The notes beneath the pieces were generated by a model. It was not told the origin of the DNA, did no database searches, and saw only the letters and a list, made by a program, of their open reading frames with translations. Made by a program: the position numbers and the translations under genes. 64,000 bases of DNA from Endozoicomonas sp. 8E (GTDB lineage: Bacteria > Pseudomonadota > Gammaproteobacteria > Pseudomonadales > Endozoicomonadaceae). Positions 29,021 to 32,537 of this stretch are shown piece by piece. Position 1 is the stretch's first letter; each line of letters starts with the position of its first letter. The stretch spans positions 3,727,697 through 3,791,696 of the forward strand of contig NZ_CP120717.1 of assembly GCF_032883915.1 (NCBI RefSeq), in the 5' to 3' direction.

Positions 29021-30106
29021 ATGGATAACAAAGCCAATAGCGAGAATCAGAAGGAAATTCAGCGCAGAGAGCTGGTTTTCAGAGTCCTGGACGACCTCAA
29101 GACCAGAGGTGAACGAATTAATGCCGATAAACTCGCCCGCATTGCCCAAATGGGGAAACAAACGGTTTTGCCCTATTACAATGAGTGGCGCTTTCTGGAT
29201 GACGCCCAGAAAGAAGCAAATGAAGCGCTACCTGATGATCTCGTGCGTGTTCTGAAACGCTCTCTTATCCAATGGAAGCATGATGCAACCGCCTCGCAGC
29301 GTGACTTTGAAGATCAGGCCAATCAGGAAATTGACGAGCTGCAACAGCTAGTCCAACAGCTCTCTGAAGAAAGACTGGACCTGAAACACCAACTGGAGCA
29401 ATTAGCGGCTGAAAATAAGTTGTTACAAGAAAATGGAGAGAAGCTGATTCAGCAACAGTCAGAGCATGAGAAAAGCATTATTCAGTTGAAGGAACAGCTA
29501 AACGGAGAGATCGAAAAAAACAAAAAGCTTGAGGAAATTCTTGCTTCCAATAAAAAAGAGCATACTGATGCCCTCGCCTCTCTGGAGACTAAGCTCGACA
29601 GTCAGTACCAGGCACAAATCAACCACTGGATCAAAACCGTCGACAGTGAGCGTCGGCTAAGAACGGATATTGAATCAAAGCTAGAGCAACAGAAAGAGTC
29701 CGGACTGGCTGTCGAGAAAGCGCACAATGAAATTCAATATCGACTGGAAGCCAAGTCTAAAGCCCATTTGGAAGCCTGCGAAGAGAGGAATCATTACAAA
29801 GCCATTGTCAAAGAATCAGATTTAGAGCTTCAAGCTATCAAAGAGCTGACACTGCTTTTGAACCTTCCTGTTGAGGCGATTACCAGCGCAGTGCGACAGC
29901 TCATGGATACAGAACAAAAAGCCCGACATAACCAGGATGTCATCAAAGAGTCCAGAAGGCATCAAGCTGGCCTTGAGCAAAAAAATAGGGAGCTACAGGA
30001 AGAACTTGATTCAAAAAAAGCACTGGAGCGCGAAGTTGAACGACTTAAAGGCTATAACGATGCTCTAAAGCTGTCTATTGAACAAAGTAAAGAGAGCAGG
30101 CAATGA
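29021..30106 (+). CDS. KfrA_N-type DNA-binding protein with long coiled coil
   Basis: 361 residues. The first 95 form a KfrA_N-type helical DNA-binding domain (RRELVFRVLDDLKTRGERIN, LARIAQMGKQTVLPYYNEWR). From about residue 100 to the end it is one long coiled coil full of Glu/Gln/Lys/Leu heptads. Plasmid KfrA proteins bind palindromes in their own promoter, repress it and form filamentous arrays. The TnpT accessory protein of Tn4651-type transposons may be similar and works with a tyrosine recombinase. Here the gene follows two strong palindromes and its last codons overlap the recombinase start (ATGA), so autoregulation and joint action with the recombinase are likely. The ribosome site is weak. 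Confidence 0.85.
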   Translation: MDNKANSENQKEIQRRELVFRVLDDLKTRGERINADKLARIAQMGKQTVLPYYNEWRFLDDAQKEANEALPDDLVRVLKRSLIQWKHDATASQRDFEDQANQEIDELQQLVQQLSEERLDLKHQLEQLAAENKLLQENGEKLIQQQSEHEKSIIQLKEQLNGEIEKNKKLEEILASNKKEHTDALASLETKLDSQYQAQINHWIKTVDSERRLRTDIESKLEQQKESGLAVEKAHNEIQYRLEAKSKAHLEACEERNHYKAIVKESDLELQAIKELTLLLNLPVEAITSAVRQLMDTEQKARHNQDVIKESRRHQAGLEQKNRELQEELDSKKALEREVERLKGYNDALKLSIEQSKESRQ

Positions 30107-31245
30107 GTTTACCAGCGCTCTCAAAACTTCTGCTACTTCCCGGGGGCGACCATCCGCACCATCAGTCCGACTTATCGTCGTTAAATACTGATATGACCGG
30201 CGCTGTCAATGACAGTGAGATTCTTACTTTGTTTCTAAACAAATCTGCAGCCCGTTCTGGCGAAACGCTCAGGCGCTATGAAAGAGAAATCTTGCGTTTC
30301 AGCGCCTGGTTGTACCAGGATATGGGGGCAACTTATAAAGAAGTTCGGCTAAAGCATCTTCAGATGTATCTTCATCATCTACAAAATCTGCCAGATCGCT
30401 GGTTAAAGAAAGGTATTCTCCCCGGACAACCAGAAAGAATACTGTTTAAGGCACCTATCAAGCCTGGAAAAAGCACTGATCAGATCATAGACGTACTCTC
30501 ATCTTTCTTTTCTTTTCTGGAGAAAAATCGATACACACCGGGCAACCCCGCTGTTTCATTGGTTCGTTCCGGCGAAAAGCTCGCCAGAGGCACCTCTATT
30601 GTCCGCTTCTTTCATGAAGAAGAATGGCAACATTTACTGAACTGCCTTGAGCTGCACAGGCAAAGTGAGCGCATCTCTGAATCAGAGTCAGCAAGAACAC
30701 GCTACATCATTATGTTGGGCTACGGTCTCGGACTTCGAGAGTCTGAACTGACCGGACATAGCTGTAATGATATTCATCCAGATATTGAAGGCGGCTATTT
30801 TCTCAGTATTCTGGGGAAGGGTCGAAAACGTCGTCAGCTGCCACTGAATAACAAGCTTATTGAAGAGATCAAGGCGTTCAGGCAAAGGTTTCACTATGAA
30901 GGCCTTTTGGGGGACGACTTTCCATTAGCTCCCAGAACACGCAAAATTCAGGGCAAAATAGGCGGACTTTCCTCCAGAGGTTTACGTTTCTGGTGGCAGA
31001 GCTTTATGGACTTCTGCGCTTCTCAATCAAACGGGATGGCTGTCAGTAACAGCCTGCGGGCAAGTCGATTCAAGGCTATGCCTTTCCATGCTCTGCGACA
31101 TACTGCATTGACACACCTTGCTCGTCAGATGGACATAGAAGATCTGGCCATTTTTGCAGGTCATGACTCGATCAACACCACCAGCCAGTATTACCACACT
31201 GAGGCCAGGAGATTGAAGCAAATGACTGAAACCCATTTTCTCTGA
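30103..31245 (+). CDS. Tyrosine recombinase / site-specific integrase
   Basis: 380 residues. A SAM-like core-binding domain (about 35-150) is followed by the catalytic domain. Active-site residues are all present: R212 in GLGLRESEL, K239 in LGKGRKRRQLP, H329 and R332 in FHALRHTALTHLA, H354 in AGHDSINTT and nucleophile Y363 (or Y364) in SQYYHTEAR. It should therefore be catalytically competent for strand exchange. It overlaps the KfrA-like gene by 4 bp and is translationally coupled to it, an arrangement reminiscent of TnpT/TnpS cointegrate-resolution modules although those are, to my knowledge, divergent. No transposase or excisionase is adjacent. The pair of palindromes upstream is the obvious candidate site. 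Confidence 0.92.
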   Translation: MSLPALSKLLLLPGGDHPHHQSDLSSLNTDMTGAVNDSEILTLFLNKSAARSGETLRRYEREILRFSAWLYQDMGATYKEVRLKHLQMYLHHLQNLPDRWLKKGILPGQPERILFKAPIKPGKSTDQIIDVLSSFFSFLEKNRYTPGNPAVSLVRSGEKLARGTSIVRFFHEEEWQHLLNCLELHRQSERISESESARTRYIIMLGYGLGLRESELTGHSCNDIHPDIEGGYFLSILGKGRKRRQLPLNNKLIEEIKAFRQRFHYEGLLGDDFPLAPRTRKIQGKIGGLSSRGLRFWWQSFMDFCASQSNGMAVSNSLRASRFKAMPFHALRHTALTHLARQMDIEDLAIFAGHDSINTTSQYYHTEARRLKQMTETHFL

Positions 31246-31312: not shown

Positions 31313-32335
31313 ATGAATTTCTGCAAGAGCTGTCGAAAGCCAATCCACGGAAATGGTCTGGAAGCCCTTGGTAGTCATTGGCACACGCATTGTTTTAACT
31401 GTCGAACCTGCAAAAAGTCGTTATTAAACAAATCGTTTGTTGGCTTTAATGGCCGCCCTTTTCATCCAAGATGCCTGAAATGCCCCGGATGCCGGAAGAC
31501 CATCAAAGACAAATACGTAGAAAACGATGGCATGCCTTGGCATCTGGACTGCTACCTGAAGCAGCATCATCCGCCCTGTGCTGTCTGCCGCAGACCCCTC
31601 GGTGAACAATATTTGATGGATTTTTGGGGTAATACCTTCTGCGAAACCCATCAGGACTATACCAATTGTTCAAGTTGCGGCCGCATAGTCTGCAAAAACA
31701 TCACCGATGGCGGCATGTCTTTCCCGGATGGGCTGGTGATCTGCAACCTCTGCAATCTTCACGGTGTAGTTTCTCAGGAAGAAGGAGACAGAATCATGGA
31801 GCAGATGCGCTCTGCCCTCTCTTCTGTAGGATTGAATTTGCACCAATCCAAAACCCCCCTGACACTGTGCGGCCGTGATGAACTCAGGGAAGCCAGTCGG
31901 CATAACTTTCATAATGAAAGGCCAATACTGGGTCTGGCACGATGGAGTATCTCTACGACAGCGAATGGTCAGGTCATAGCCCGAGAGTTCAACGATATTC
32001 TGATCCAGAGGCATCTACCAGAAGAACATTTCCGAACCGTAGCCATCCATGAATTAACCCATGCCTGGTTCTTCTACAACAACTATCGCGACCTGCCACT
32101 GGAGGTTGAAGAAGGCATGTGCGTCATGATGGAGTATATCTGGTTGAAAAACCAAGATACAAAAGACGCAGAATTCCGCAGAGCAGCGATAGAAAACAGT
32201 GACGATCCTGTTTACGGCCTCGGCTTCAAGAAGGCCAGGGCTTCCCTGAAATTAATGCCCTTGAAAACCCTGCTGCAATTTATCAAGGAACGGAGAGAAT
32301 TCCCAAGCCGCTGGAGTGCTTTCTTTTATCACTGA
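31313..32335 (+). CDS. DA1-like LIM-domain metallopeptidase
   Basis: 340 residues resembling the eukaryotic ubiquitin-activated peptidase DA1. A canonical LIM domain has C4, C7, H24, C27, C30, C33, H51 and C54. A second LIM-like unit follows (C57, C60, H77, C80, C89, C92, C110, H113), then another CxxC pair (C119/C122, C144/C147). The C-terminal half carries the gluzincin motif H246-E-L-T-H250 with VEEGM (Glu266/267) about 16 residues on, as in plant DA1 (HEMMH, VEEGIC), and ends with DDPVYGLGFKKAR like the DA1 tail SPVYGDGF. There is no signal peptide. AGGGAAGGAC precedes the ATG. It lies 67 bp after the recombinase, same strand, so it may be cargo or an independent gene. Confidence 0.88.
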   Translation: MNFCKSCRKPIHGNGLEALGSHWHTHCFNCRTCKKSLLNKSFVGFNGRPFHPRCLKCPGCRKTIKDKYVENDGMPWHLDCYLKQHHPPCAVCRRPLGEQYLMDFWGNTFCETHQDYTNCSSCGRIVCKNITDGGMSFPDGLVICNLCNLHGVVSQEEGDRIMEQMRSALSSVGLNLHQSKTPLTLCGRDELREASRHNFHNERPILGLARWSISTTANGQVIAREFNDILIQRHLPEEHFRTVAIHELTHAWFFYNNYRDLPLEVEEGMCVMMEYIWLKNQDTKDAEFRRAAIENSDDPVYGLGFKKARASLKLMPLKTLLQFIKERREFPSRWSAFFYH

Positions 32336-32463: not shown

Positions 32464-32537
32464 TGGAGGCGAGTACCGGAGTCGAACCGGTCTAAATGGA
32501 GTTGCAGTCCACTGCATAACCGCTTTGCTAACTCGCC
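32464..32537 (-). tRNA. tRNA-Cys (anticodon GCA)
   Basis: The minus strand reads GGCGAGT from 32537 and pairs with ACTCGCC before the encoded CCA end at 32464-32466. The anticodon loop CTGCAAC gives GCA. The D-loop (AGCAAAGCGGTTATGC) and T-arm GGTTCGACTCCGG fit. Length is 74 nt. The weak hairpin CCTCTT / AAGAGG (about 32446-32459) lies just downstream. The tRNA's 3' end faces the DA1-like gene and the recombinase. Confidence 0.95.

Follow-up and report, generated by a model that had tools for sequence, protein, structure and literature searches.

A predicted DA1-type LIM peptidase gene that looks like an old inheritance of the Endozoicomonadaceae

In plants, DA1 restrains organ growth and becomes active through ubiquitylation, in which ubiquitin-interacting motifs (UIMs) take part, as described in PMC5322733. 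The LIM-like unit consists of four CxxC/H pairs according to Dong et al. (PMC5322733), and a Cys change in the third pair is described as abolishing both the ubiquitylation and the peptidase activity of Arabidopsis DA1 (PMC5322733). Bacterial homologues of DA1 have already been described (Burroughs et al. 2011, as cited in PMC5322733); no paper on DA1 or a LIM peptidase in Endozoicomonas appeared among the literature matches listed, which comprised titles and the starts of abstracts. Here we describe a DA1-type gene within a 64,000-nucleotide stretch of DNA from Endozoicomonas sp. 8E (the window, meaning the whole stretch that was analysed).

The gene is an open reading frame of 340 codons whose ATG is directly preceded on the 5' side by AGGGAAGG; an in-frame stop stands ten codons upstream, with no ATG, GTG or TTG in between. 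Its features are as follows.

31313..32335, + strand: DA1-type LIM zinc peptidase gene (340-residue open reading frame; Pfam profiles and alignment)
31322..31393, + strand: zinc site 1 (C4, C7, H24, C27), first half of the LIM domain (ligands by pattern)
31400..31474, + strand: zinc site 2 (C30, C33, H51, C54), second half of the LIM domain (ligands by pattern)
31481..31552, + strand: zinc site 3 (C57, C60, H77, C80), which makes the number of LIM-type sites odd (by pattern)
31577..31753, + strand: LIM-like unit (C89, C92, C110, H113 and C119, C122, C144, C147; pattern and alignment)
31763..32332, + strand: zincin peptidase region, residues 151-340 (best PF12315 stretch 206-284)
32048..32062, + strand: HELTH zinc-binding and catalytic motif, residues 246-250 (alignment)
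32108..32113, + strand: EE, residues 266-267, region of the expected third zinc ligand (alignment)
32204..32227, + strand: DPVYGLGF motif, residues 298-305 (alignment)

The window protein carries five zinc sites by pattern, three of the CxxC/HxxC kind and two that form the LIM-like unit; the last two were taken as such because Dong et al. give that unit four CxxC/H pairs (PMC5322733). The architecture is of DA1 type, with a LIM domain and a half followed by the LIM-like unit and the peptidase. A LIM domain followed by a LIM-like unit had been predicted originally and stands, whereas the separate "extra CxxC pair" of that prediction does not, as it belongs to the four-pair LIM-like unit.

Pfam matches the window protein to the DA1-like family PF12315 (E 6.7e-17, 62 bits against a cut-off of 25) and, ahead of the peptidase, to the LIM family PF00412 (E 1.9e-15, 57.3 bits against a cut-off of 22.9), and searches of NCBIfam, the PADLOC defence library and PHROGs returned no match for it. 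The bare pattern HExxH-x(12-25)-E counts for little because 691 of 20000 shuffled versions of the window protein contain it; the profile scores carry the case. A predicted structure model was poor (mean pLDDT 57.4, pTM 0.33), and the peptidase part alone had no match among solved structures at E up to 10.

Conservation was assessed in an alignment (A2) of 16 proteins, namely the window protein, 13 other family members and the scattered bearers G499 and G339; the other 15 are 35-91% identical to the window protein. The rows were hand-picked among the 33 family bearers with stop-bearing copies left out, so that the conservation reported is that of intact copies. PF12315 is matched by all 16 proteins and LIM by 15 (E up to 0.01); against solved structures, the A2 profile recovered LIM proteins only, among the best 60 of 68 matches. 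Invariant in 16/16 are H246, E247, H250, E266, E267, G268, D298, Y301, G302 and G304, and these residues together with the Pfam scores confirm the layout first proposed (LIM, LIM-like unit, HELTH...EE and DPVYGLGF). All eight LIM-like ligands are equally invariant (16/16), and ligands as fixed as the active site fit the effect of the third-pair Cys change in Arabidopsis DA1 (PMC5322733). The zinc-site totals vary, with six in two proteins (G499 and G339), five in ten, four in three and two in one; the four-site homologues have one LIM-type site fewer than the window protein, and the two-site protein (L061, genus g3) has no LIM ahead of its LIM-like unit. Such architecture and invariance support a predicted zinc peptidase whose LIM-like unit would be coupled to the active site and whose docking array may vary.

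The DA1-type gene was found in 33 of the 36 Endozoicomonadaceae genomes searched (10/10 in the genus, the window's own genome included), and the three family genomes without it are G010, G012 and G017. Stops lie inside the matched stretch in three of the 33 bearing assemblies (G033, G025 and G018); the G014 copy, lying where a contig ends, comprises 100 residues, and that of G011 is without the LIM part. The gene is not indispensable, since it is missing in three of the 36 and broken by stops in three more assemblies. The window's own genome is placed in Endozoicomonas by its nearest named relatives, Endozoicomonas sp. ISHI1 (91%) and E. arenosclerae (88%), with two further loci at 78% and 75%. 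Across wider Pseudomonadota samples it is rare: PF12315 occurs in 2/274 genomes of a class sample (the window's own and G288) and in 3/398 of a phylum sample (own, G339 and G499), and the A2 profile in 2/369 genomes of the class (own and G288); these samples overlap. The scattered bearers' own families, with few genomes per family, had the gene in 1/1, 1/3 and 1/2 genomes.

Several further loci were seen in these searches. The family genome G016 encodes a second, divergent LIM-DA1 protein (L063:5602-6921, 439 residues) with about 110 residues before its first LIM; at E up to 0.001 no other of the 36 family genomes has a second copy. The gene of G288 lies in two pieces on two contigs (L064:1-648 and G288:C75:1-462), and the stretch before the second piece resembles, by eye, part of what we take to be an intron maturase. 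The lone viral match among 194 candidate stretches (L118) was rejected as a phage DA1, being a 106-residue zincin frame without LIM. That frame (L118:4917-5237, on a viral contig) encodes a minimal zincin with HELTHAW...VEE, which matches PHROG families of unknown function and, weakly, metallo-protease.

Three further features lie around the gene.

29021..30106, + strand: coiled-coil protein, KfrA-like neighbour (KfrA_N in orthologues)
30103..31245, + strand: tyrosine recombinase, inherited family gene, probably not a functional part (Pfam, NCBIfam, orthologues and tree)
32464..32537, - strand: tRNA-Cys, downstream of the DA1-type gene

The window recombinase does not reach the XerC or XerD cut-off. 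Of the 36 family genomes, 34 carry a strong orthologue of it (E 3e-47 or better), which is split in two in G011; the exceptions are G013, with no match, and G014, with a weak one. The KfrA_N cut-off was reached by three of the four coiled-coil orthologues scanned, with one just under, and the window copy gave no match. A promoter and terminator scan found one promoter-like site against 4.8 in shuffles, and 10 terminator-like sites against 4.5.

Descent was followed in two trees. The first was built from 30 rows, namely 27 of the 33 family copies together with G339, G499 and the extra copy of G016, and in it the copies of genera g5, g6, g7 and g8 cluster by genus with supports of 92/87 to 100/100, while g1 forms two clades and the second G016 copy a very long branch. 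With the latter left out, the second tree sets the 27 family rows apart from G339 and G499 at a moderate support of 85/92, the two being long branches and the root a midpoint; g1 is less resolved there. Distances in the DA1 and recombinase trees correlate at 0.90 across 24 common genomes (276 non-independent pairs, G011 left out).

The gene is under purifying selection. Five relatives were tested, of which three gave no value because dS was saturated, and dN/dS against the two close relatives is 0.067 and 0.095, compared with 0.035 in both for galU. By part, the values are 0.050 and 0.075 for the peptidase and 0.103 and 0.134 for LIM. The DA1-type gene looks like an old inherited gene of the Endozoicomonadaceae rather than a recent acquisition via the neighbouring integrase. 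An old entry into an ancestor of the family is possible, as none of the 21 genomes from other families of the order has the gene.

The start of the protein bears on where it may act. The window protein has its first zinc Cys at residue 4; in A2 this Cys falls at residues 3-8 in 14 of the 16 proteins, and the two exceptions have it at 21 and 51. Several relatives might be translated from a start codon 9 to 26 codons further upstream. So early a zinc ligand leaves no place for a signal peptide and little for a disordered secretion start; the absence of a signal peptide, an early claim about this gene, is upheld, and since there is no N-terminal leader the protein is presumably cytosolic.

Taken together, we consider it probable, judging from the sequences, that the gene encodes a cytosolic DA1-type zinc endopeptidase, inherited vertically since the Endozoicomonadaceae ancestor or soon after, which would be docked through its LIM sites, gated by its LIM-like unit and directed at bacterial proteins. 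The LIM zinc array would dock partner or substrate proteins, the invariant LIM-like unit would pack on or gate the zincin domain, and the HELTH...EE site would cleave a few chosen bacterial proteins. The switch probably differs from the plant one because the protein has no UIMs and no room for them: Pfam UIM gave no match on it at E up to 0.1, and the residues before Cys4 are too few to hold such motifs. The simplest switch would be a substrate or partner that binds the LIM array. A ubiquitin search of the genome came back empty, and its controls were likewise silent. We hold more tentatively, and think rather unlikely, the bolder idea of a near-core, stripped-down DA1 whose LIM array varies by single sites while gate and active site stay fixed, and which might either reveal, through ubiquitin-free regulation, the ancestral switch of the DA1 family or prove to be a host-directed peptidase.

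Action on a host is the alternative that fares best, although we judge it unlikely: the enzyme would be delivered into sponge, coral or mollusc cells, where its LIM array would reach host proteins. The genome does carry a type III export gate gene (955 bits against an hrcV cut-off of 692), the divergent second copy of G016 (L063) has some 110 residues ahead of its first LIM, and the other families of the order are without the gene (0/21). Against delivery stand the zinc ligand at residue 4 with no N-terminal leader, and the 1.9 Mb between the export gate gene (at 1.82 Mb) and the DA1-type gene (at 3.76 Mb); the G499 and G339 proteins also start near their first zinc Cys (residues 7 and 3). Effectors usually lack so low a dN/dS and so near-universal a presence in a family, here 33 of 36 genomes. 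The bearers belong to a family described as marine animal symbionts (PMC12491435), and type III secretion is described for such symbionts (PMC12491435, PMC13286007).

Less likely again is a functional unit in which the peptidase controls the recombinase, or its KfrA-like coiled-coil partner, by cleavage. The KfrA-like and recombinase genes overlap by 4 bases and lie on the same strand as the DA1-type gene, and of the 31 genomes bearing both DA1 and recombinase matches, 23 (all in g1, g6 and g7) have them separated by 22-1637 bp. The two are nevertheless on different contigs in the remaining eight (g3, g5 and g8), and the recombinase is found in G010, G012 and G017, the three genomes lacking the DA1-type gene. 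Other genes also intervene: four g1 genomes (gap 720-723 bp) have an extra gene between recombinase and DA1, an O-methyltransferase frame as read in two of them with a Pfam match in one (L050), and G005 has a different gene in that place. At the g5 and g8 loci inspected, other genes flank DA1 (a cupin gene in g8), and no partner gene common to all the DA1 loci inspected was found.

Recent horizontal gain of DA1 with an integrative element, the reading first suggested by its position next to an integrase, is very improbable, for although it sits between a tyrosine recombinase gene and a tRNA gene and is rare in the phylum sample, its tree runs largely by genus in step with the recombinase tree, the same neighbours occur in three genera, its GC is ordinary (0.484, with 0.471 across the window), a search of the window for exact 16-base repeats of the last 25 bases of tRNA-Cys found none beyond the gene itself, and plasmid and phage records gave no DA1 match at E up to 0.001. 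An integrase-borne gain was rejected, as regards the genus and most of the family, on the concordant trees and the three genomes with a recombinase and no DA1; both genes are inherited in the family, and no tied integrase, exact att repeat within the window or patchy presence marks the DA1-type gene as recent mobile cargo.

The same genome contains two tandem paralogue arrays (G000:C1:6148394-6176000, + strand, and 7079899-7107092, - strand; loci L107-L110), and the secondary LIM and DA1 matches fall in them, so these were rejected as further LIM proteins. Array members are mostly about 450-1100 residues long and have, by eye, hydrophobic starts, basic tails (HRRQHRKRK or similar) and long zinc-finger runs. 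One member per array was scanned, giving 199 and 186 bits for C2H2 and 64.9 and 62.3 bits for LIM against a cut-off of 22.9. Despite passing for LIM, the members are read as probable C2H2 arrays on their C2H2 scores and a CxxC...HxxxxH-type spacing seen by eye. Similar secondary matches occur in G003, and zinc finger enrichment is mentioned for Kistimonas (PMC12491435).

Among known peptidases, the IrrE/ImmA-like (M78), DUF6782 and SprT-like zincins give a weak profile match around the HExxH helix, and their models stay below their own cut-offs on the window protein. To our knowledge these zincins lack a LIM array. A bacterial comparison comes from Roseiflexus, which belongs to another phylum than the window genome. 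Its DA1-like protein (Burroughs et al. 2011), known to us by its description in PMC5322733, has LIM-like pairs and resembles DA1. With the plant DA1/DAR proteins (Arabidopsis DA1, DAR1 and DAR2; DAR4) the window protein shares the LIM, the four-pair LIM-like unit, the clan MA HExxH...EE site and PF12315, a comparison that rests on the features described for them (PMC5322733) rather than on plant sequences. Unlike plant DA1, it has no UIMs, three residues before its first zinc Cys and an odd extra CCHC site; it is not a plant-type DA1, and Pfam's wide DA1-like family asks for no UIMs. As a small, natural, UIM-less DA1 with some of its bearers in culture, it would let the effect of the LIM-like unit on the peptidase be tested in isolation.
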